A stretch of 34,490 nt of DNA from Acidimicrobiaceae bacterium. Its GTDB lineage: Bacteria; Actinomycetota; Acidimicrobiia; Acidimicrobiales; RAAP-2. Within the stretch, counting starts at the first letter, position 1. Each line of letters begins with the position of its first letter. The notes below the pieces were generated by a model. It ran no database searches. It was not told the origin of the DNA and saw only the letters and a program-made list of their open reading frames with translations. Location of the stretch: positions 1-34,490 of the forward strand of contig DAHUZM010000034.1 in the NCBI GenBank assembly GCA_027306525.1. The letters are read 5' to 3'. Shown piece by piece: positions 1 to 32,807 of the stretch. A program made the translations under genes and the position numbers.

Positions 1-77
1 CTGCGATCCGAGTCGATGACCCGGTGCGCCGCCTCGACCTTGTACTCGGTCGTGAATCTCCGTCTGGTCGGTGACAT
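1..77 (-). mobile_element. IS3-family-type transposase OrfA, N-terminus only (truncated by window edge)
   Basis: Reverse complement from ATG at 77..75 reads MSPTRRRFTTEYKVEAAHRVIDSDR, typical of the N-terminus of IS3-group OrfA (HTH_Tnp_1: RRxFTxEYK). ORF runs off the window edge. Confidence 0.6.
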
Positions 78-9414: not shown

Positions 9415-11241
9415 TCACCCGTCGATGGGACGTGACGTCCAGAGCCCGAGAGCCGGCTGTGCGATGTGCTGGAAGGGCCCACCTTTCGAATCGGTGCGGG
9501 GACCACTGACACTCCCCCCGCCGACGCCGAGCCGCGCCAGCTCGGCTCCGAGCGGCCGCCACTCGTAGCCCACACCCTCGACTGCCTCCCTGCTCAGGCC
9601 ACCCGAGGCGGGATCGGTGCAGTAGACGATCCGAAAGCGGCCCTCGGAGCTCCCCTGGATCAGGTGGCCGGCCGCCCCCAGATTCGAGGCCAGCTCCGGG
9701 TCGCTCGCCATGGCGTCGCGAACGACCGCTGTGCCTCGGTAGCCATGGCGCCGGATCAGCCCGTCGAGTGCGTCGTCTTCGCCAAAGCGCGTGACGCCCG
9801 GCGCGAGGACGACCAGCTCGCCACCGTCGGCGACGGCCATCCGGGTCCGGTACACCGCCTTGTTGGCGAGCCAGGTGGAACGGAACTCCTCCCCGTCCAG
9901 CCAACACGACACGCGCTCGAAGGGCTCGGTGACCTCTGCGATGTTGGTGCTCGCCGAGAGAGCCGCGGCGGCCCGGAAGGCCGCGCCGCCAGTCTCGGCC
10001 GACCCACCGCGTCCCGCGAACAGCCCGCGCTGGACGACCCCATCAGTCGTGCTCTCCATGACGGTGAGCAGCCAGAGCACTCGTAGGCGAGGAGCGAGCA
10101 GGCGGTCGAAGGCTGCGTCGACCACGTCGCGCACCGGCGTCCACACACGACCCATCACCTCCTCGATACCGCACAGCGCGCTCATGAGGTGCGTCGCGTT
10201 GATCGTTCCGGCGCCACCCAGCCCGATCACGAGGTTCTTCGTGAAGTTCGCCATGCCGATCACCTCGTGCGGCAGCACCTGTCCGACGGACACGACCGCA
10301 TCCCACGGCTCGAACAGGGCGGTGTCGACCTCGACGGGCACCCGATCGGACGACCGGGAGGCCGAGGCCGCCGCCACCTCGGCACCGGAGATCTCGCCCA
10401 CCCGCTCGAGGCCCTGGCGCCACCGGTGCGCGCGCAGACGCCCGGCGGGCACGCGACCCCCGAAGAGCCGGTCCGCGTCCGGAGGGTCCAGGGGACGGTG
10501 GGTCCCGGTCGCCGGCAGCACCGTCACATCGCATCCGGCGGCCGAGAGCTCGGAGAAGACCGAGGCGCCGATCTCTCCAGCACCACTGCGTGCCCGGGTG
10601 GCATCCGGCGGGACGACCAGGATCCGCCGAGCGCCGCCTTCGAGCACGTCGGCCCGGACCAACTCCCTCACGAGCGCGTCCACCTCCCCCGACCCGAGGA
10701 CCCGTTCGATCGAGCCATCGGCGAGCAGTGGTGACACGGCAACGCCGGGCCGCACGTGCTCGAGCGCTCCCTGTGCCCGCATCACCACCTGGGGGGGCGG
10801 CCCCGCGGCATCTACGCGCGCGACGTCGGTCTCCTGGGGCGCCGGTGGTTCAAGGGTCGCGAACTGGCCGTCGACCATGCCCGCCTTCATGAAGTGCCCG
10901 CCACGGTGCTCGAGCCGGCGTCTCGCCTCGCCTGCGGTGACGACGAGGTAGACGAAGCGGACGCCCTCGGCCCTGCGCAAGGCGTCCCGATAGCTGCGTC
11001 GCAGGGCCGAGCACGCCACGACCACCGCGTCGGAGGATCGCAGGGTGCTCCGGACCGCGGCCAGCCAGGGCCAGCGGTCCTCGTCGTCGAGCGGTCTGCC
11101 GGCCACCATCTTGGCGACGTTGGCCGGCGGATGGAGCTGGTCGCCGTCGACGAAGGCCGAGCGGCGGCGCGTGGCCAGCTCGAGGCCGACGGTCGACTTG
11201 CCCGATCCGGCCACGCCCATCACAACGATCCGGTCCGTCAC
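9415..11241 (-). CDS. Bifunctional fusion: gluconokinase (GntK) N-terminal domain + LarA-like (DUF2088 / nickel-pincer racemase-epimerase superfamily) C-terminal domain
   Basis: Continuous ORF. GntK part: GVAGSGKSTVG P-loop, FVDGDQLHPPANVAKM, CSALRRSYRDALR, RLEHRGGHFMKAGMVDGQFATLE. LarA-like part: PPDATR, ATGTHRPL, VLPHEVIGMANFTKNLVIGLGGAGTINATH. GTG at 11241 lies 2 nt after the uxaC stop (11246-11244). Confidence 0.88.
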   Translation of the reverse strand: MTDRIVVMGVAGSGKSTVGLELATRRRSAFVDGDQLHPPANVAKMVAGRPLDDEDRWPWLAAVRSTLRSSDAVVVACSALRRSYRDALRRAEGVRFVYLVVTAGEARRRLEHRGGHFMKAGMVDGQFATLEPPAPQETDVARVDAAGPPPQVVMRAQGALEHVRPGVAVSPLLADGSIERVLGSGEVDALVRELVRADVLEGGARRILVVPPDATRARSGAGEIGASVFSELSAAGCDVTVLPATGTHRPLDPPDADRLFGGRVPAGRLRAHRWRQGLERVGEISGAEVAAASASRSSDRVPVEVDTALFEPWDAVVSVGQVLPHEVIGMANFTKNLVIGLGGAGTINATHLMSALCGIEEVMGRVWTPVRDVVDAAFDRLLAPRLRVLWLLTVMESTTDGVVQRGLFAGRGGSAETGGAAFRAAAALSASTNIAEVTEPFERVSCWLDGEEFRSTWLANKAVYRTRMAVADGGELVVLAPGVTRFGEDDALDGLIRRHGYRGTAVVRDAMASDPELASNLGAAGHLIQGSSEGRFRIVYCTDPASGGLSREAVEGVGYEWRPLGAELARLGVGGGSVSGPRTDSKGGPFQHIAQPALGLWTSRPIDG

Positions 11242-11243
11242 GT

Positions 11244-12665
11244 TCAGGCCTGAGCGCCGCACCCGAAGAACGCCCGGGCGTTGGCGCAGCACACATCATG
11301 GACCACTTCGGCGAGCCGGGCCCGGTCAGGGGGAATCCGACCCTCGTCCACCAGGCGGCCGACGAACGCGCAGAGCACGCGCCGGAACACCTCGTGACGC
11401 ACCATCGAGAGGACCGAACGGGAATCGGTCACCATGCCGACGAAGGCTCCGAGCTGACCGACGGCTGCGAGGCAGGCCAGGTGCGCCTCGATGCCCTCCT
11501 CGTGGTCGTTGAACCACCACGGTGGCCCCCACTGCACGAGCCCGCGGACCCCGGGCCGCGCGAAGGCGCCCGCCAAGGCGGCGAACACGGTTCCCTGGGC
11601 CGGATGAAGGTTGAAGAGCACGCTGCGAGGCAGGCACCCCGACGACTCGAGGTTGGCGAGGAGGCGCCGCAGGCCCGGCTCTTGAGGGAGGTCGGTCACC
11701 GCGTCACCGCCTACGTCTCGGCCGACGATCGCGGCGAGCCGCGGCGAGGCGTCGCGTCGTGCCCCCAGGTGCAGCTGGAACACCCGGTCGTTCGCTTTGG
11801 CGTGGCGGGCCGCCAACCAGAGCACCTCGAGCGCGAGGGCGTCGCGCTGCTCGCCCGACGGTTTCCGGCCCTGACGGGCCAAACGGACCGCCTCATCGGC
11901 GAGCCGTTCGTCACGCTCGCGATCGGGCACGCAGAGGAGCCCATGATCACTGCCGAGCCCACCGGCCCTCGCGAACCGCGCCAACGACGCTTCGAGGGCC
12001 GCGACGAGCGACGGGAGGTCCCCGACGCCGAGCCCGGTCACGTCCTCGAGGCGCTCGACCCACACGTTCCAGGCGTGCGGGTCGGGGAGCAGCCCGAGCA
12101 CCTCGTCCGGGCGCCAGGTCGGCACGACCGCCGGCATTCCCGGCTGCCCCGCCTCGCGCAGCTCCGCGTGTGCCAGGAGATCGTCGCCGGGGTCGTCGGT
12201 GGTTGCGAGCAGCTCCACGCCGAAGCGAGCGAGAAGGGATCGTGTCGAAAGACCCGTCAGCTGCCGGTTCGCCTCGTCCCAGATCTCCCGGGCGCTCCCG
12301 GGATGCAGGGCGACGTCGACGCCGAAGACCCGGCGGAGCGCGAGGTGACCCCAGAGATAGAGCGGGCTGCCGATCAGCCTCGGCATCGTGGCCGCCCACG
12401 CCGCAAAGGTGTCCCAGGGGTCCGCGCCGCCCGTCACCAGCGTCTCATCGACGCCCGCGAGCCGCATGGCGCGCCACGTGTAGTGGTCCTCGGTGAGCCA
12501 GAGCTCGCTCAACGTCGTGTAGACGCGGTCGGCCGCCACGTCGGCCGCGCGTAGGTGACTGTGGAAGTCGATGATCGGACAGCCGACCGCCGTCCCGTGA
12601 AAGAGCTCCCGGGCGGTCGACGTCGACAGCAGGACGTCTTCGCCCACGAACATGCCGGCCTCCAT
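11244..12665 (-). CDS. uxaC: Glucuronate (uronate) isomerase
   Basis: 473 aa; PIIDFHSHLRAADVAADRVYTTLSELWLTEDHYTWRAMRLAGV and GMVTDSRSVLSMVRHEVFRRVLC are UxaC hallmarks. Confidence 0.93.
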   Translation of the reverse strand: MEAGMFVGEDVLLSTSTARELFHGTAVGCPIIDFHSHLRAADVAADRVYTTLSELWLTEDHYTWRAMRLAGVDETLVTGGADPWDTFAAWAATMPRLIGSPLYLWGHLALRRVFGVDVALHPGSAREIWDEANRQLTGLSTRSLLARFGVELLATTDDPGDDLLAHAELREAGQPGMPAVVPTWRPDEVLGLLPDPHAWNVWVERLEDVTGLGVGDLPSLVAALEASLARFARAGGLGSDHGLLCVPDRERDERLADEAVRLARQGRKPSGEQRDALALEVLWLAARHAKANDRVFQLHLGARRDASPRLAAIVGRDVGGDAVTDLPQEPGLRRLLANLESSGCLPRSVLFNLHPAQGTVFAALAGAFARPGVRGLVQWGPPWWFNDHEEGIEAHLACLAAVGQLGAFVGMVTDSRSVLSMVRHEVFRRVLCAFVGRLVDEGRIPPDRARLAEVVHDVCCANARAFFGCGAQA

Positions 12666-13459
12666 CAGATGCTCACGGTGCTGAAGCCGCCGTCGACCAC
12701 GACCTCGGCCCCGGTGATGAAGCGCCCGGCGTCACCGGCGAGGAGCAGCGCCGCTCCGGCGAGATCCTCGGGCATCCCCAGACGACCGAGGGGGGTATGA
12801 CCGACGATCGCCTCGATCCGTTTCTCATCGAGCAGCCGCCGGTTCTGCTCGGCAGGCATGAAGCCGGGCACGAGCAGATTGCAGCGGATGCCGAAAGGGC
12901 CCCACTCACGGGCCAGGTTCTTCGTGAGGTTGTGCACGGCGGCCTTGGCCATCGCATAGGTGAAGACCCGCGAGAGAGGAGACATCGCTGCCATGCTCCC
13001 CAGATTGATCACGCTTGCGCCGGTGCCTTCCGCTGTCGCCCTCGCCACGAAGTACCGTCCGAACTCCTGACAGCTGCGGACCACCGCCAGCTGGTCGACG
13101 GCCACGATGCGATCCAGCTCATCGTCGGAGATCTCGAGGAACGCCGTGCCCGAATTCATGCCCGCTCCGTTCACGAGCACGTCGACGCGACCATGGGACA
13201 CGAGGACGCGTTCGACGAGGCCGGTGAGCTCCTCGCGTCTCGTGGCGTCACACCGCTCGAAGCGCACGTCGGCGTGGGCGCCGGCCAGCCCCGCCGCCAC
13301 GGCCGCACCCCTGGCCTCGTCGCGCCCCACGACGACGGTTCGTGCGCCCGCATCGGCGAGCGTGGCGGCGATGCGCCGACCCAGCACACCGGTGCCGCCG
13401 ATCACGACCGCGACCCGATCATCGAGGCGGAACGACGGGGCCCCGCCCAGGCGGTCCAC
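12665..13459 (-). CDS. SDR-family oxidoreductase, probable D-mannonate oxidoreductase (fructuronate reductase, Bacillus UxuB-like)
   Basis: FRLDDRVAVVIGGTGVLGRRIAATLADAGA cofactor motif, YAMAKAAV (YxxxK), FITGAEVVVDGGFS C-terminus. GTG at 13459; stop overlaps uxaC start by 1 nt (TGATG). Specific function inferred from operon context. Confidence 0.8.
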   Translation of the reverse strand: MDRLGGAPSFRLDDRVAVVIGGTGVLGRRIAATLADAGARTVVVGRDEARGAAVAAGLAGAHADVRFERCDATRREELTGLVERVLVSHGRVDVLVNGAGMNSGTAFLEISDDELDRIVAVDQLAVVRSCQEFGRYFVARATAEGTGASVINLGSMAAMSPLSRVFTYAMAKAAVHNLTKNLAREWGPFGIRCNLLVPGFMPAEQNRRLLDEKRIEAIVGHTPLGRLGMPEDLAGAALLLAGDAGRFITGAEVVVDGGFSTVSI

Positions 13460-14443: not shown

Positions 14444-16408
<1,965 letters not shown>

Positions 16409-16410
16409 GT

Positions 16411-17052
16411 TCAGTTCGCTCGCCTCAGTTCCAGTGGCTTTCCTACGTAGAGTACGTGTCGTCCGGCCATCCCGTTCACCACGCCTGCGGCCGAGGTGTA
16501 CCAGGCCGCGGCGGCCGTGATGACGCCGAGTACGCCGGCGGCCTTGAGGATGTTGGCACCCGAAGAGTTCCAGTTCCCGATCACGAGAAGGATCTCCGTG
16601 ATCTCAAGGGTGAGGAACACCATGAACACCGCCTGAGACACGAACAGGCTCCAGAGCAGCAGGTAGGTGTTGATGATCAAGAACCCGAGGACGATCCAGC
16701 CCAGGTCGTTGTTGGCGATCGCCACCGACTTGGCGCCCGGTGCCACCAGTTCGGCCCACAGGCCGAGGCCGATCCAGAAGCCGCCGTACGTCGAGAACGC
16801 CGTGGCGCCGAACACGTTGCGGTTCTTGAATTCCCACATACCGGCCAGGAGCTGGACCAGGCCGCCGTAGCCGAAGGCATATCCGAGCCATTCGTTGCCG
16901 GTTCCCCGGATCCAGTGGGCGTTCGCCGCCGACAACAAGAACGTCGTCAGTGCGAAGCCCGCCAGGCCCAGCGGCGCAGGATCGGCGATTGGCGGAAGGG
17001 CCGTGACCTCCACCGACTGCGCGGCGCGGTCACCGCCCATCGTCATCGACAT
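16411..17052 (-). CDS. GPR1/FUN34/YaaH (SatP) family acetate transporter
   Basis: PLGLAGFALTTFLLSAANAH, YAFGYGGLVQLLAGMWEFKNRNVFGATAFSTYGGFWIGLG are family signatures; ATG at 17052; 2 nt upstream of acsA. Confidence 0.92.
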   Translation of the reverse strand: MSMTMGGDRAAQSVEVTALPPIADPAPLGLAGFALTTFLLSAANAHWIRGTGNEWLGYAFGYGGLVQLLAGMWEFKNRNVFGATAFSTYGGFWIGLGLWAELVAPGAKSVAIANNDLGWIVLGFLIINTYLLLWSLFVSQAVFMVFLTLEITEILLVIGNWNSSGANILKAAGVLGVITAAAAWYTSAAGVVNGMAGRHVLYVGKPLELRRAN

Positions 17053-17299
17053 GTCTCCACCCCCTCCGGCCCGTGGCCGGTCTCGTCGCTGCCGGGTCTC
17101 CCAGCAGCCATGGCGGATACTGCGGCCCGGCCCACCTCGTGGCAAGGCGTCGTCGTCGAGCGGCCGGAGCCGTCGCCAAGCGGTCGACGAACGGTCAGGT
17201 TCGAGCGACGAGCGGCGCTGCCCCGAGCCGACCGGCGGGGCTCGTGGCAGACTCTTGGGTGACGCGGCCCTCACCGCGGAGGCCGCTCCGGGGGAGACC

Positions 17300-18475
17300 A
17301 TGAGAGAGGCCTTGTGGTTGTCGCTGATCGTCGCGGTCCTCGTGATCGGCAGCGTCGCGTGGTTCGCCCTGCGCGGCGGCCGGCATCTCGGCACCCCGAC
17401 CCAGCGCGCCACCTATGAGGCTCTCCACACGGCCAGCCTCGCCGCTCTGGCACTGCGCGCCGGGCTGAGCCACGACAGCGCGGCGCGAGCGGTCCCGCAC
17501 CTGCGCACCCTCCTCGGCGCACGGGGCGCCGCCCTGGCGGACCTCGGAGGCACCCTCGCCAGCGACAACGTCGACGAGGGGCACGCGGCGCTCCTCGACG
17601 CCCCGGTGCATGCCGCCATGTCGAGTGGGCGGCCCCAGACCCTCGCCCCCGAAGAGCACGCCTGTGGCGACTCGGGCTGCCCGCTCGAGGGCGGCGTCGT
17701 CGTGCCGATCCAGGTGGACGGTGTCGTGGTCGGCGCGCTGGCCTCCACGGGCCCGGCCAGCTCGGCCGGACAGCTCCGCCTCGCCGGTGAGGTCGCGCAG
17801 TTCGTGTCGAGGCACCTCGAGCTCGCCGAGCTCGACCGGTCCCGGCGTCGCGCCGACCAAGCCGAGCTTCGCTTCCTGCGCGCACAGATCTCACCGCACT
17901 TCATCTACAACGCGCTCAGCGCGATCGAGTCCTTCGTGCGGACCGACCCCGAGCGGGCGCGCGAGCTCTTGATCGGGTTCGCCGACTTCACCCGCTACAG
18001 CTTCCGGAGCCACGGCCAATTCGTGACGATGGCCGAGGAGCTGCGGTTGGTCGACACCTATCTCGACCTCGAGCGGGCGCGCTTCAGCGACCGGCTTTCG
18101 ATCACCTTGCGGGTGGCGCCCGAGGTGCTGAGCGTCGTGCTCCCCTCGCTCGTGCTCCAACCTCTCGTCGAGAACGCCGTGCGCCACGGCATCGAGCCGA
18201 GCGAACGCTCGGGCAAGCTGTCCATCGTCATCGCGGATGCCGACAGCGAGGCGGTCGTGAGCATCGAAGACGACGGCGTCGGCGCCGATCCCACCTACCT
18301 CGGCCGCGTGCTCTCGGGGACGAGCCAGGGACCGGGGATCGGTCTGCACAACGTGGACGAGCGGCTGCGCGCGGTGTTCGGCGAGGACTACGGGCTCACG
18401 ATCGAGACCGCCGTGGGAGCGGGCACCAAGGTGCAGATGCGCATCCCGAAGTTCCATGCCGGGGTGCACGTGTAG
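17300..18475 (+). CDS. LytS/YehU-type sensor histidine kinase
   Basis: RFLRAQISPHFIYNALSAIESFVRTDPERARELL (His_kinase H-box), LVLQPLVENAVRHGIEP, GPGIGLHNVDERLRAVFG; one N-terminal TM then a GAF-like region. ATG at 17300. Confidence 0.92.
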   Translation: MREALWLSLIVAVLVIGSVAWFALRGGRHLGTPTQRATYEALHTASLAALALRAGLSHDSAARAVPHLRTLLGARGAALADLGGTLASDNVDEGHAALLDAPVHAAMSSGRPQTLAPEEHACGDSGCPLEGGVVVPIQVDGVVVGALASTGPASSAGQLRLAGEVAQFVSRHLELAELDRSRRRADQAELRFLRAQISPHFIYNALSAIESFVRTDPERARELLIGFADFTRYSFRSHGQFVTMAEELRLVDTYLDLERARFSDRLSITLRVAPEVLSVVLPSLVLQPLVENAVRHGIEPSERSGKLSIVIADADSEAVVSIEDDGVGADPTYLGRVLSGTSQGPGIGLHNVDERLRAVFGEDYGLTIETAVGAGTKVQMRIPKFHAGVHV

Positions 18476-26726: not shown

Positions 26727-28643
26727 CTAGGGCACCGTGGTGGTGGTGGTCGTCGTGGTGGTCGTCGGCGACGGGGCGTTGCAGACCGTGATCGTGTCGG
26801 TCGCCGGCAGGGTGACCTGCGTGCCGGCTGCCGGGCTCTGGGCAACCACGTTGCCCTGGTCCGATGCGTTGCACGTCGTGGTGGTGGCAACCTGGACGGT
26901 GAGCCCCTGCCCCTGGAGCGCGGTCGTCGCCGCGCTCTGCGACTTGCCCTGGACGTTTTGGATGATCACCTGACAGGGACCCGACGAGATCGTCAGGTTG
27001 ACCGCGGTCCCCCGGCCGACAGAGGTGCTCGCGGCCGGGCTGGAGCCCGAGACCTCACCCGAGGGGACCGAGTTCGAGCACGCGTTGGACTGCGACCCGA
27101 CGGTGAGGCCTGCGCCGCTCAGCTGGGCGGAGGCCTGGGGCGGGGTGAGCCCGATGAGATCGGGCACCGACACCTGATTCGTCGGCTTGGGCACCGAGAT
27201 CGTCACGGTCGATCCCTTCCGGATGCTCGTGCCGCCGATCGGCGACTGGGAGAGCACGACGTTCTGCTGTCCGGGGCTGTTCACGAATTTCACCCTGGGT
27301 ACGAGCCCGACGTTGGTGATGAGCGCCTCGGCCGCTCCGAGGTCGTCGTTCACGACGTTTGGGACCTGCACCTTCACCTCGCCCGCGCTGATCACCAGGT
27401 TCACGACCGCCTTCTTCGAGACGTGCGTACCCGGGGCCGGGTCGGTGCTGAGCACGGTGCCCGACTTGGCCGTGTTGGTCACGTGGCGCGTCGTGCCAAT
27501 GACGAGCCCCTTCGAGGTAAGAATCTGCTCGGCCTGCGTCGCGGGCTTGCCGACGACGTTGGGGAGGGCGAACCCGCCGGTGAACGTGCTCACCAGGAGG
27601 TACGCGACGACGGCGAGCGCTGCGAGCAGGACGACGAGGAGCGTGATCCAGCCCCACGGTCGCCGACCGTTCGGCCGCTCGCGAGGCCGCGTCGGGGAGC
27701 GGAACGCCCGGGTGCTCGGCCCGACGGCAGCCGTCGCGTCCATGGCACCGACGGCGCCGATCACCCCGGTCGCTGCCATGTTGCCGTTGGGCGGGCTCGC
27801 CTCGACGGGCTGGCCCTCGACGAAGCGCAGCAGGTCCGACCGGAACTCTTCGGCGCTCTGGTATCGCTGATCGGGCTGCTTGGCCATCGCCTTCATGGTC
27901 ACGGCCTCGAGCTCGGCCGGCACGGTGTCGAGCAACTCCCGCGGGGTCGGGGGGATGTCACGCACGTGCTTGGACGCCACGGACACCGGCGTGTCACCGA
28001 GGAAGGGCGGACGCCCGGTCAACATCTCGAAGAGCACGACACCGAGCGAGTAGATGTCCGTGCGCGCGTCGACGCCGATGCCCTCTGCCTGCTCGGGCGA
28101 GAAGTAGGTCGCGGTGCCCATCACCGCGCCGGTCTGGGTGAGGCTCTCCTCGGTGTTGACGGCTCGGGCGATGCCGAAGTCGGTGACCTTCACCTGGCCG
28201 TCGTGGGTGATGAGCACGTTGCCGGGCTTGATGTCTCGGTGCACAACGCCGTGGCGGTGTGCGGAGGCCAGTGCCGCCGCGACCTGGGCGGTGACCTGCG
28301 CAGCGCGCGCCGGCTCGATGGGGCCCGTCTCGCGCAACACCGCCGAGAGCGGGCGGCCGTCGACGAACTCCATCACGATGAAGTACGAGCCCGAGTCCTC
28401 GCCCCAGTCGAACACCGGAACGATGTTGGGATGCGAGAGCTTCGCCGCCGCCTGTGCCTCCCGCCGGAACCGCTCGACGAAGGCCCGGTCGACCGAGAGC
28501 TCGGGGAACAGCACCTTGAGCGCGACGGGGCGGTCCAAGAGCCGGTCCCGGGCTCGATAGACCTCGGCCATCCCACCCCGAGCGATCAGGTGCGTAAGCT
28601 CGTAGCGGTCCGAGAAGACGCGTGGGGTCTCGACGGGCTGCAT
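26727..28643 (-). CDS. pknB: Serine/threonine protein kinase with PASTA repeats (PknB-like)
   Basis: YELTHLIARGGMAEVYRARDRLLDRPVALKVLF, HRDIKPGNVLI, DFGIARAV; TM helix; four PASTA repeats; Thr-rich C-terminal tail. Confidence 0.96.
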   Translation of the reverse strand: MQPVETPRVFSDRYELTHLIARGGMAEVYRARDRLLDRPVALKVLFPELSVDRAFVERFRREAQAAAKLSHPNIVPVFDWGEDSGSYFIVMEFVDGRPLSAVLRETGPIEPARAAQVTAQVAAALASAHRHGVVHRDIKPGNVLITHDGQVKVTDFGIARAVNTEESLTQTGAVMGTATYFSPEQAEGIGVDARTDIYSLGVVLFEMLTGRPPFLGDTPVSVASKHVRDIPPTPRELLDTVPAELEAVTMKAMAKQPDQRYQSAEEFRSDLLRFVEGQPVEASPPNGNMAATGVIGAVGAMDATAAVGPSTRAFRSPTRPRERPNGRRPWGWITLLVVLLAALAVVAYLLVSTFTGGFALPNVVGKPATQAEQILTSKGLVIGTTRHVTNTAKSGTVLSTDPAPGTHVSKKAVVNLVISAGEVKVQVPNVVNDDLGAAEALITNVGLVPRVKFVNSPGQQNVVLSQSPIGGTSIRKGSTVTISVPKPTNQVSVPDLIGLTPPQASAQLSGAGLTVGSQSNACSNSVPSGEVSGSSPAASTSVGRGTAVNLTISSGPCQVIIQNVQGKSQSAATTALQGQGLTVQVATTTTCNASDQGNVVAQSPAAGTQVTLPATDTITVCNAPSPTTTTTTTTTTVP

Positions 28644-28719
28644 GGCGCTCAGAGCCTACGCGGCAACGTGCGCCGCCTGGGGTAGGTCGGGTACCCCTCG
28701 GGAAGACTCCAACGCCTGG

Positions 28720-30252
28720 TCACGGGGCCAGCGCAGCGAGGAGCATGGTCTTGACGATCGGGCCGGCGATCGTCGCGCCGGCCGTGGAGAGCGGCTGTGA
28801 CGGCACGACGACCGCGATGGCCACCCTGGGGTTCGTGGCCGGCGCGAAGCCGATCATCCAGTCGGCGACCGAGGTGATGCTCGGGTAGCCCACCTGGGCC
28901 GTGCCCGTCTTCACCGCGACGTGCAAGGCGGGGGGGAAGCCGACGCCCGAGGCGGTGCCCGACGGGGACGTCGCGACCGCCTCCATGAGCGGGATCACGT
29001 TGGCCGCCGCGGCGCCGGAGGTCGCCTGCCTCCAGACGTGCGGCCGGTACCTCTTGACGACCTGGCCCTGGGCATCGGTGACCTTGGCCAAGAAATGCGG
29101 CGCCATCACCGCTCCCCCGTTGGCTATCCCCGCCGCCACGAGCACGTTCTCCAAGGCGGTGGTCGCCACGTCCTGCTGGCCGAAGGCCGAGTAGGCCTGG
29201 CCGGGCACGCCGGGGTCGCCTCCCGGGCTCAGCTGTCTGGCGTTCGGGTAGCGCGACGGCTGGACGTAGCCCGCTGGCAGATCCAAGGGTGGCACGGCGT
29301 TGAAACCGAACAGCTCCGCCTGCCGGGCAAGGTGGTCGGCACCGAGAAGCAGGCCGAGCTTGGCATATCCAGGATCGCAGGACTCGGGCAGCATCGCGGC
29401 GATCGTCCCGCCGCAGGGTGTGGCCGCAGCCGCAGTGTCGGCGTCGTTGCAGATCTGCTGATTCGTGTCGGGGATGTTGGTGAGGCATCGTGTGACCGGG
29501 AAGTCGTAGGAGGCGAGCACGGGATCGAGGTTGAAGATGGCCGCCGTGGTGACGACCTTCGCCGTCGACCCGGGTGGGATCGCGTTGTAGGTAGCCAAGG
29601 GGTAGATGGGGGCGTAACCCTCCGCGTCCTGGGCGTGGTAGGCGTTCCAAGCAGCGCGCTCCTCCCCGTAGCTCGGGGCGGTGAGCGGCGTCGGGTCGTA
29701 GCTCGGACTCGACGCCATCGCCAGGACCGCGCCGGTACGGGGGTCCACCATCACGATCGCCCCGTCCCGGTTGGGCCCCGGAAGGCCGTTCAGGGCGTCG
29801 ACAGCGGCTCGCTGCAGGGCCGGTACCACCGTGAGCGTGATGTCGTCGGTGGTCGCGCCGGGCGGTGAGAGCAGCTGGCTGAGCGTCTCGGCCGAGCGCT
29901 CGTGCCGTTCGAGGTACGAGCCGTAGGTGGCCTCGACCCCGGTGGAGCGGTAAAAGGGCGAGTAGGTCCCGACGATCTGAGAGAACAGCGCTCCGGTCGG
30001 GTACACCCGCTTGAACTGGTAGGAGTGCGAGCCGCTGGGCGCAATTCGTACCGACGTGGCGAGCAGCGTGCCGTCGGCGGCGTACACGTTTCCCCGATCC
30101 TCCTCGAGATAGTTGGGGACCCGATTGACCGGATTGGAGCCCGATTGCGCGAGCGACGGGCCCTTGGAGACCTGGATGTTCACGAGCTGCACGACCACGA
30201 GGGCGAAGCACACGATGAGGACGAGCCCCAACCAGCGGATGCGCCGGGACAC
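28720..30252 (-). CDS. pbpA: Penicillin-binding protein (class B transpeptidase, PbpA-like)
   Basis: N-terminal TM, PPGSTAKVVTTAAIF (SxxK) and VAVKTGTAQVGYPS (KTG) motifs; GTG start overlaps pstP stop (TAGTG). Confidence 0.94.
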   Translation of the reverse strand: MSRRIRWLGLVLIVCFALVVVQLVNIQVSKGPSLAQSGSNPVNRVPNYLEEDRGNVYAADGTLLATSVRIAPSGSHSYQFKRVYPTGALFSQIVGTYSPFYRSTGVEATYGSYLERHERSAETLSQLLSPPGATTDDITLTVVPALQRAAVDALNGLPGPNRDGAIVMVDPRTGAVLAMASSPSYDPTPLTAPSYGEERAAWNAYHAQDAEGYAPIYPLATYNAIPPGSTAKVVTTAAIFNLDPVLASYDFPVTRCLTNIPDTNQQICNDADTAAAATPCGGTIAAMLPESCDPGYAKLGLLLGADHLARQAELFGFNAVPPLDLPAGYVQPSRYPNARQLSPGGDPGVPGQAYSAFGQQDVATTALENVLVAAGIANGGAVMAPHFLAKVTDAQGQVVKRYRPHVWRQATSGAAAANVIPLMEAVATSPSGTASGVGFPPALHVAVKTGTAQVGYPSITSVADWMIGFAPATNPRVAIAVVVPSQPLSTAGATIAGPIVKTMLLAALAP

Positions 30253-31631
30253 TAGAGCCCGCCATTGAGCGCCGCGCTGTTCTGTTGCGCCAAGAACTCT
30301 TGGTGCAGGTTTGCGATGTATTGCTCGCCCGCCCGCAGCGACGGCTCGTTCACCGTCGCGCGCAGAGCGGGGAGCCTGCGTGGGAGCACCTGTGCGGTGG
30401 TCACGCCCGTGAGGTCCAAGAGCTTGGGCTGGAACCCGAGGAACCCACCCTTGCGGCCCTGGTAGACGGCCAGGTGGTCGTGGTCGACCGCCACGTACCA
30501 GTTGTCCATCGCGTACCAGTGCACAACGGCCACCGCCCCGGCCGGCACGGCCAGGACGAGGACGAAGAACAGGATCACGCGCAGCGTAATCCGGCGGGGG
30601 ATGCCCAGCCTGCGCCGGCGCTCGCGCCGCGTCTCGCGGGGCAGCGGGGCCAGCTCGGGCCGGGGCCGGTACTCGCGCGGGGGAAGGGTCTGCACGGCGG
30701 CCGGCGAGGAGACGAAGGCCTCGGCGGCCGGCGCGTCGGGGTCACGTCCGCCTGGGACCGCCCGCACCACCGCGGTGATCGGGTCTCCCCCCGGATGGGT
30801 GCCGGTCACGGGGGGGGCACCCTCGGCGCCCGAGGCCCTCCGCACCACGTTCACCGGTCCGGGCACCGAGACCCGCGAAACCGCCGAGGGTTCGGGCGCT
30901 CCCTCCTCGCCGACGAGCACGTCCACCACGACGACGGTGATGTTGTCGCTCCCACCGTGGGCGTTTGCCCGGTCGACCAGGGCTCGGGCCGCCTTGCGGG
31001 GGTCCTTGACCGTCTCGAGCACCTGCGAGATCTGGGCGACGCTGACCTCGTTGGTCAATCCGTCGCTGCAGAGCAGCAAGCGGTCGCCCGTGTGGACGTG
31101 CAGCTCCCAAAGATCGACGTCGACGTCGGGGCCGACACCGAGCGCCCGCGTGAGGATGTGCCGGTGCGGGTGCACCTCCGCCTCGGCCTCGGTCATCTCG
31201 CCGTGGCGGACCCGCTCCTCGGCCAGGCTGTGGTCGGCGGTGATCTGGCGGACCTGGCCGCCCGACATGAGATAGGCCCGCGAGTCGCCGACGTTGGCGA
31301 GGCACATCACGTCCCGGCCGTCGGAGCCCACGGTCAGCCCGGCGGCCGTGAGGGTCGTGCCCATCCCCCGCAGCTGCTCGACCTCGAGGCTCTTCTCCCA
31401 GATCGCCGAGTTGGCCGCGACGAACGCCTCGCGCAATCCCGCGATCGTCGGGTTCTGGTCATAGGCGCTCTGCAGCGTGTCGACGGCGATGCGCGCCGCC
31501 ACCTCGCCTCCGACGTGGCCCCCCATCCCGTCGGCCACTGCGAAGAGGGTGTCGCCAGCGGCGGCGCGGTCCTCGTTGCTGTCCCGGGCCCGACCGACAT
31601 CGGTGGCGACCCCGGACCGCAGGACTGTCAT
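30252..31631 (-). CDS. pstP: PP2C-family serine/threonine phosphatase (PstP-like)
   Basis: DSNEDRAAAGDTLFAVADGMGGHVGGEVAA, NVGDSRAYLMSGGQVRQITADHSL, SDGLTNEV, GGSDNITVVVV; one TM and extracellular tail. Confidence 0.96.
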   Translation of the reverse strand: MTVLRSGVATDVGRARDSNEDRAAAGDTLFAVADGMGGHVGGEVAARIAVDTLQSAYDQNPTIAGLREAFVAANSAIWEKSLEVEQLRGMGTTLTAAGLTVGSDGRDVMCLANVGDSRAYLMSGGQVRQITADHSLAEERVRHGEMTEAEAEVHPHRHILTRALGVGPDVDVDLWELHVHTGDRLLLCSDGLTNEVSVAQISQVLETVKDPRKAARALVDRANAHGGSDNITVVVVDVLVGEEGAPEPSAVSRVSVPGPVNVVRRASGAEGAPPVTGTHPGGDPITAVVRAVPGGRDPDAPAAEAFVSSPAAVQTLPPREYRPRPELAPLPRETRRERRRRLGIPRRITLRVILFFVLVLAVPAGAVAVVHWYAMDNWYVAVDHDHLAVYQGRKGGFLGFQPKLLDLTGVTTAQVLPRRLPALRATVNEPSLRAGEQYIANLHQEFLAQQNSAALNGGL

Positions 31632-32125
31632 CGGCGGACCTCGAAGACCGTCGCCCCGATCTGCAACAGATCGCCCTTGGCCAGGCGGGACGGTTGCGAG
31701 ATCCGCTCCGAGTTGACGAACGTGCCGTTGGTCGAGCCCAGGTCCTCGACCCAGACCTGGCCGCCGCTTCGATAGAGCCGGGCGTGCACCGTGGAGCTGT
31801 ACGCGTCGTAGGTCGTCGGGATCCCGCAGCCGTTGGAACGGCCGACCGTCACCTCGCCATCGAGGTCGTAGACGGTGCCCTCACGCTCGTGTGGCTCGAT
31901 GACCTCCAGGCGCAGTTGACGGCGCGACCGGGTCTCACGCAGCGGGCGCTGGTCCTCGTCCTCCGCCCTGCGCTGCGCCCGCCGCTGGGCGCGTGTCGGT
32001 CCGGCAGGGCGAACCTCCACGAACACGGCGCGGACGACCCGAAGGAAGAACAAGAAGATCAGGATCACGACCAACCACTGCAGTGGCCGGATGATCGCCG
32101 AGTAGTTGGTGCCTAGAAGGAGCAC
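31628..32125 (-). CDS. fhaB: FHA-domain membrane protein (FhaB/FipA-like)
   Basis: N-terminal TM; GTVYDLDGEVTVGRSNGCGIPTTYDAYSSTVHARLYRSGGQVWVEDLGSTNGTFVNSERI. Confidence 0.93.
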   Translation of the reverse strand: MLLLGTNYSAIIRPLQWLVVILIFLFFLRVVRAVFVEVRPAGPTRAQRRAQRRAEDEDQRPLRETRSRRQLRLEVIEPHEREGTVYDLDGEVTVGRSNGCGIPTTYDAYSSTVHARLYRSGGQVWVEDLGSTNGTFVNSERISQPSRLAKGDLLQIGATVFEVRR

Positions 32126-32138
32126 GGGAGATGCGCCC

Positions 32139-32807
32139 TCATAGCATCTCGAAGATGAGGGTCGTGGAGCCCACGGTGATGCTGTCGCCGGTCGAGAGGT
32201 AGCTCTCCCGCACCGGCATCCCGTTCACCCTGGTGCCGTTGGTGGACCCGAGGTCCCGGATCATGAAGGCGTCGTTCATTCGAAGCACCTCGGCATGACG
32301 CCGGCTCACGTTGGGGTCGCTGAGCACGATCGAGCACTCGGGCATCCGGCCGATGACCAGGGGCTCGCCTTCGATCTGGACCCGGCCACCCCCAGGAAGC
32401 ACAAGCTCGGCGGGTGCGAGACCGTCGGGGCCCTCGATGACCTCGGCATCGATGTTGAAGCGGCCTGCCCGGAGCCTCGGCCCCTCCAGGATCTGGACAT
32501 CGATCGGGCCCACGAAGATGTACTGCTCGTTGCGAGCGTGCTCCCGCGCCGCCTCGGCGAGCTCGCGGACGAGCGCGTCGAGGAAGTTGGCGAACCGGTC
32601 GACGTCGGGCTTGGCGAGCGTCACCGAGAAGGAATTGGGCGCGATGAGCCCGCGCACGCCGACACGCCGATGGAGGTCCATCTCTCGTGTCAGGCGGCGC
32701 CCGATCTCGACCGGCTGGAGGTTGCTACGGAAGGGTTTGGCCAACGTTCCTTCCACAAGGCGCTCGAGTCTGTCCTCGAACTGCTGGAGTCCCATGGTCT
32801 CGGACAT
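32139..32807 (-). CDS. fhaA: DUF3662 + FHA domain protein (FhaA-like)
   Basis: MGLQQFEDRLERLVEGTLAKPFRSNLQPVEIGRRLTREMD N-terminus; VIGRMPECSIVLSDPNVSRRHAEVLRMNDAFMIRDLGSTNGTRVNG FHA. Confidence 0.94.
   Translation of the reverse strand: MSETMGLQQFEDRLERLVEGTLAKPFRSNLQPVEIGRRLTREMDLHRRVGVRGLIAPNSFSVTLAKPDVDRFANFLDALVRELAEAAREHARNEQYIFVGPIDVQILEGPRLRAGRFNIDAEVIEGPDGLAPAELVLPGGGRVQIEGEPLVIGRMPECSIVLSDPNVSRRHAEVLRMNDAFMIRDLGSTNGTRVNGMPVRESYLSTGDSITVGSTTLIFEML

Follow-up and report, generated by a model that had tools for sequence, protein, structure and literature searches.

What does a protein do that joins a GntK-type gluconokinase to a homologue of LarA, and in which pathway would it act? 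The question is raised by a gene on the minus strand of a contig from an Acidimicrobiaceae bacterium (DAHUZM010000034.1 of assembly GCA_027306525.1; its 34,490 nucleotides are called here the window), which occupies positions 9415..11241 and encodes a chain of 608 amino acids (aa) with a probable GTG start at 11241. To judge from the sequence, this one polypeptide consists of a gluconokinase joined to a LarA-family protein that is nearest to LarAH group 18. We consider it probable (about 0.75) that it is a two-domain enzyme of a glucuronate operon, in which glucuronate is converted via fructuronate, D-mannonate and D-gluconate to 6-phosphogluconate, with the last two steps carried out on a single chain.

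Two halves with conserved active-site residues

The open reading frame that encloses the gene spans 9415-11292 on the minus strand, which also carries all other features located below by ranges of the form 1..2, and its presence was confirmed. The GTG at 11241 is preferred as the start, because it comes 2 bases past the stop of the preceding gene, uxaC, which ends at 11244. The active-site residues named in the original prediction are real, but their numbers, counted from 11292, are 17 too high for the 608-aa protein, in which His342, Lys352 and His368 become H325, K335 and H351, Arg233 becomes R216 and His265 becomes H248.

The kinase half comprises residues 1-160 (10762..11241). The NCBIfam profile of GntK/IdnK gluconokinases, TIGR01313, covers residues 5-153 with 175.9 bits (cut-off 113.75), and the matches in the PDB are the gluconokinases 3t61, 1knq and 4eun. 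The motifs that had been listed as retained, such as the P-loop and DGDxLHPxxN, were found intact in the window protein, which contains GVAGSGKS, DGDQLHPPAN, CSAL and GHFMKAGMVDGQF. Residues 181-608 (9418..10701) form a predicted LarA-like epimerase domain using the nickel-pincer nucleotide (NPN). NF052594, annotated in NCBIfam as 'nickel-dependent putative hexonate epimerase' of LarAH group 18, matches residues 201-602 over its positions 22-410 of 411, with 429.5 bits and an E-value of 1e-128. The Pfam domain Lar_N (PF09861) is found above its cut-off (45.5 versus 23.3 bits) and, like TIGR01313 in the kinase half (176 bits), scores far above chance. The match in the PDB is 4nar, the structure of GntE2 of Thermotoga maritima, which is a demonstrated D-mannonate/D-gluconate epimerase, and 5huq is a further fold match.

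In LarA, R75, K184 and H200 (the coordinating His) interact with NPN, and D72, H108, H174 and K298 are catalytic (PMC7583248); equivalents of all these residues were found. D213-A-T-R216 (10594..10605) corresponds to D72/R75 of LarA and D38/R41 of 4nar, H248 (10498..10500) to H108 and H73, the NPN-interacting K335 (10237..10239) to K184 and K164, and the Ni-coordinating H351 (10189..10191) to H200 and H180. The segment H325-E326-V327 (10261..10269) combines the catalytic His, equivalent to H174, with the E/V specificity loop of groups 18-20, and W457...K461 (9859..9873; Y294/K298 in LarA, W283/K287 in 4nar) supplies the catalytic Lys, K461, which had not been checked before. Further pairs with 4nar are H325/H154, E326/E155, V327/S156 and N460/G286, and the alignment can be regarded as verified, because the mapped positions agree with the residue numbers published for GntE2 (R41, E155, S156, K164, H180 and G286; PMC7583248). 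The claimed spacing, H+10 = K and K+16 = H, is present as stated in H325/K335/H351, and the Arg of DATR and the His of GTHRP do align with R75 and H108 of LarA. The equivalent of H174, however, had been counted among the nickel-pincer ligands, and in LarA this residue is catalytic rather than a nickel ligand. A chance origin of the motif spacing is ruled out by the full-length profile and structure matches. Groups 18-20 have in common the E-V/S loop and a Trp in helix 11 (PMC7583248), and both the E/V loop and the Trp are found here. Selectivity residues in GntE are usually E, V, A and H (PMC11770544); the fusion has E326, V327 and H526, and G525 where relatives have Ala, the last two positions being mapped to W358/T359 of LarA by inference. 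The catalytic and NPN-interacting positions are kept in all related rows examined, with the exception of one incomplete row. Domain scores, motifs and residue alignment together uphold the proposal that the fusion is bifunctional, both of its active sites being apparently intact.

An AlphaFold2 model of the window protein, made with an alignment of 39 rows, has a mean pLDDT of 94.7 and a pTM of 0.93, and that of an orthologue with 57% identity (locus L011) has 94.8 and 0.93, both models having drawn on the same sequences. In Foldseek comparisons the N-terminal part matched gluconokinases, with 3t61 at 0.84, and the C-terminal part matched the GntE2 structure 4nar (TM 0.80 by target) and the holo-structures of LarA. 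The junction between the domains, residues 161-180 (10702..10761), is a gap-free stretch in the alignment of 8 orthologues; there are no indels in residues 146-180 and one gap only in residues 181-204, and sequence conservation in this region is low. Taken together, the few indels and the model scores weakly suggest a fixed domain geometry and not a floppy tether. A bolder idea, which we regard as unlikely, is that of a rigid two-site machine, in which mannonate and gluconate, or their 6-phospho forms, would be handed from the NPN site to that of the kinase, or back, within the protein; it would be the first NPN epimerase with a built-in kinase driving it one way. Channelling, which the original prediction had suggested, is an attractive possibility.

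Distribution and origin of the fusion

The fusion was found in at least 13 further genomes, mostly of Acidimicrobiales, as a single open frame with 54-74% identity; this count was obtained after merging duplicates and combines a scan of species genomes with searches of further genomes. The scan, which covered 85,488 species genomes, yielded nine full-length fusions and one that ends at a contig edge. The occurrence of the same open frame in many genomes rules out a sequencing error or an artificial fusion of two genes, which the original prediction had named as the result that would speak against it. Among 398 sampled genomes of the order, a group-18 gene is present in 11: it is fused in 8, unfused in 2, and in 1 (G376, locus L116) it belongs to the fused clade and has no kinase half. 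One of the loci with the fusion, L005, comes from a metagenome-assembled genome labelled Acidobacteriota; its aligned segments match those of G238, a genome of this order, and the label may be wrong.

In a tree of the LarA half all fused proteins form one clade (support 96/97) with G376 nested within it, which indicates at the sequence level that the fusion arose once and makes it likely that the kinase half of G376 was lost. In a tree of the kinases, the fused ones group with two others from this order that stand alone (100/99), and because these fall in the same clade the kinase tree alone gives no single origin. The missing kinase half of G376, together with the altered kinase motifs of some orthologues (G to A in the P-loop of L004, GHFM to HHVF in L012), could be taken to mean that the fusion is a relic or an artefact in which one half is non-functional. 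This is extremely improbable, given that one intact frame is kept in at least 14 genomes, that the kinase core is as invariant as the LarA part (34% across 8 orthologues) and that the motifs of the window protein are intact. The fused kinase is the sole above-cut-off GntK in each of 11 fused genomes, including that of the window.

The probable glucuronate operon and the predicted route

Upstream of the fusion lie uxaC, encoding a glucuronate (uronate) isomerase (11244..12665; PRK02925 with 425 bits, cut-off 387; Pfam UxaC), and a gene for an oxidoreductase of the short-chain dehydrogenase/reductase (SDR) family, a candidate fructuronate reductase that matches PRK08277 and adjoins uxaC in relatives (12665..13459, with its start near 13459). 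The genes follow one another as SDR, uxaC, fusion; the first two overlap by 1 base, and 2 bases separate uxaC from the fusion. This is a tight operon, probably for glucuronate catabolism. The same order is found at L004, L007-L009 and L012, and at the shorter loci L005, L113, L114, L119 and L120 uxaC lies directly upstream of the fusion. At L006 SDR and uxaC are followed by about 3.8 kb in which the gene for 6-phosphogluconate dehydrogenase (Gnd; TIGR00873, 715 bits versus 427) ends just before the fusion, and at L011 a member of the mannitol dehydrogenase family, related to fructuronate reductase, is encoded just downstream.

In the route that we favour, UxaC would isomerise glucuronate to D-fructuronate, the SDR would reduce this to D-mannonate, and the LarA half would invert C2 by passing a hydride to the nickel-pincer cofactor and back, yielding D-gluconate, which the GntK half would phosphorylate with ATP. 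The resulting 6-phosphogluconate would enter the oxidative pentose phosphate pathway via 6-phosphogluconate dehydrogenase. The phosphorylation is effectively irreversible, and having it on the same chain as the reversible epimerisation would draw the flux forward. NPN would be supplied by LarB, LarC and LarE encoded elsewhere in the genome; LarB, LarC1/C2 and LarE are found above their cut-offs, all on contig C158 of the same genome (G000). LarC and LarE are widespread in the order, LarC occurring in 47 of 61 relatives and LarE in about 50, so that the presence of these genes is necessary but unspecific. The genome also encodes a 6-phosphogluconate dehydrogenase of the short NAD type (TIGR00872, 372.6 bits, cut-off 297), and no UxuA was found in this assembly, which is 89% complete, so that absences weigh less than presences. 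In the 11 fused genomes uxuA was not found in nine, has a sub-threshold match in one and a real hit in another. A route via the Entner-Doudoroff dehydratase (Edd) is unlikely, because the only ILVD_EDD protein per genome is probably IlvD. Two other LarA homologues were observed in the genome of the window: one, which ends at the edge of contig C84 (L109:1-2082), adjoins a second uxaC (540.7 bits) and again has NF052594 as its best, though weak, NCBIfam match, and the other, on contig C54 (L108:1730-3319), is a 529-aa protein of the LarAH14/15/16 family (888 bits, cut-off 740).

The original prediction had the fusion fix the epimerase product as gluconate. From the fusion alone this is too strong, because a mannonate kinase and a 6-phosphomannonate 2-epimerase have been documented in extracts of Lactobacillus suebicus, but gluconate is made likely by the gene context, in which UxaC, an SDR resembling mannonate oxidoreductases and Gnd are present and no UxuA was found. 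Conversion of D-mannonate to D-gluconate has also been published for relatives from groups 19 and 20 with the same Glu in the loop and the same Trp. The L. suebicus extracts, which phosphorylate first, probably with a GntK-like kinase (PMC6978723), suggest the reverse order of the last two steps, with the kinase half making 6-phosphomannonate from D-mannonate and the LarA half epimerising it to 6-phosphogluconate. The gene context cannot tell the two orders apart, as they share it together with the net product. We nevertheless regard the reverse order as unlikely: the GntE enzymes of Thermotoga and Corynebacterium use unphosphorylated mannonate, the standard GntK motifs are kept in the fused kinase, and mannonate is reportedly not used by GntK of E. 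coli, a report known here through its citation in PMC6978723.

UxaC enzymes also accept galacturonate, which leaves room for another hexonate of the operon, e.g. one derived from tagaturonate, as the substrate of the LarA half, with the kinase phosphorylating the product. The SDR has no specific assignment, and PMC7583248 gives the substrate of group 18 only as 'hexonate'. This alternative is very unlikely in view of Gnd, which stands beside the fused gene at L006 and within about 6 kb of unfused group-18 genes from several phyla, mostly together with an SDR, and thus points to 6-phosphogluconate. The gene order is LarA-SDR-GntK-Gnd at L014, LarA-SDR-PfkB kinase-Gnd at L015, MFS-LarA-SDR-Gnd at L016 and LarA-Gnd at L018, and L030 contains Gnd, UxaC, LarA and SDR; at L122 and L123, both from the taxonomic order to which the window belongs, the gene for LarA is directly followed by one for a separate GntK. 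The PfkB-family kinase that takes the place of GntK between SDR and Gnd (L015:8156-9310) is possibly a non-homologous gluconate kinase.

Several points count against the route via D-mannonate and free D-gluconate. The LarA half misses the curated cut-off of NF052594 (429.5 bits versus 500), a score that no genome in the sample of 398 from the order exceeds, and the best match of the SDR, the D-mannonate oxidoreductase subfamily PRK08277, was obtained with 199.5 bits, below the cut-off of 281. In the active site, N460 precedes the catalytic Lys where GntE2 has Gly, and within residues 525-529 (positions 9655-9669) the window protein departs from all 22 relatives compared, with G525 and Q529 in place of their Ala and His, a change which possibly shifts specificity or activity. 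The G376 protein does without the kinase half, and neither GntK nor LarC was found in its assembly (94% complete). Finally, no published assay of any group-18 member was found in the literature searched.

Elsewhere in the window, an acetate-CoA ligase gene adjoins that of a GPR1/FUN34/YaaH-family transporter (14444-17412), probably for uptake and activation of acetate, and a PASTA Ser/Thr kinase, a PP2C phosphatase and two FHA-domain genes (26727-32807) form the usual actinobacterial cell-division signalling cluster.

Comparison with known systems

The actinobacteria that carry the fusion are for the most part uncultured, and the protein suggests how Acidimicrobiia among them might use glucuronate without mannonate dehydratase. 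The fused kinase, the nearby Gnd in several phyla and the fact that uxuA was not found in most of the fused genomes make the substrate of group 18 directly and cheaply testable. The fusion also provides a single polypeptide on which the forward pull on a reversible nickel-pincer epimerisation could be studied.

A close characterized counterpart is GntE2 (LarAH20, 4NAR), which shares with the LarA half the fold, the catalytic and NPN-interacting residues, the Glu of the loop and the Trp of helix 11, and whose context is likewise hexuronate-catabolic and includes a gntK gene nearby (according to a citation in PMC6978723). It is, however, a separate protein of a different LarAH group, with about 21% identity in the fold alignment and with Gly instead of Asn before the catalytic Lys. 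LarAH group 18 (NF052594), for which a hexonate substrate was only hypothesised in a 2020 study (PMC7583248), is the best-matching LarAH family, nearly over its full length and with all signature residues, and the fusion differs from it by the score below the curated cut-off and by the attached GntK. The kinase half is 47% identical to Sinorhizobium GntK (3t61) in the fold alignment, with intact motifs, but unlike 3t61 and E. coli GntK (1knq) it is the N-terminal domain of a larger protein. The L. suebicus route achieves the same overall conversion of mannonate to 6-phosphogluconate, but there phosphorylation comes first and the genes were not identified (PMC6978723). For Thermotoga, where gntE and gntK are separate, the scheme that we favour had already been put forward by Rodionova et al. 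2012 (as cited in PMC6978723 and PMC7583248); the epimerase step has since been demonstrated. The enzyme types, the pathway and D-mannonate/D-gluconate epimerases that use NPN are thus already known. No earlier report of a GntK-LarA fusion was found in the open literature, outside which most subscription papers fall, and the fusion itself, as well as the gene context that ties group 18 to gluconate, look new.
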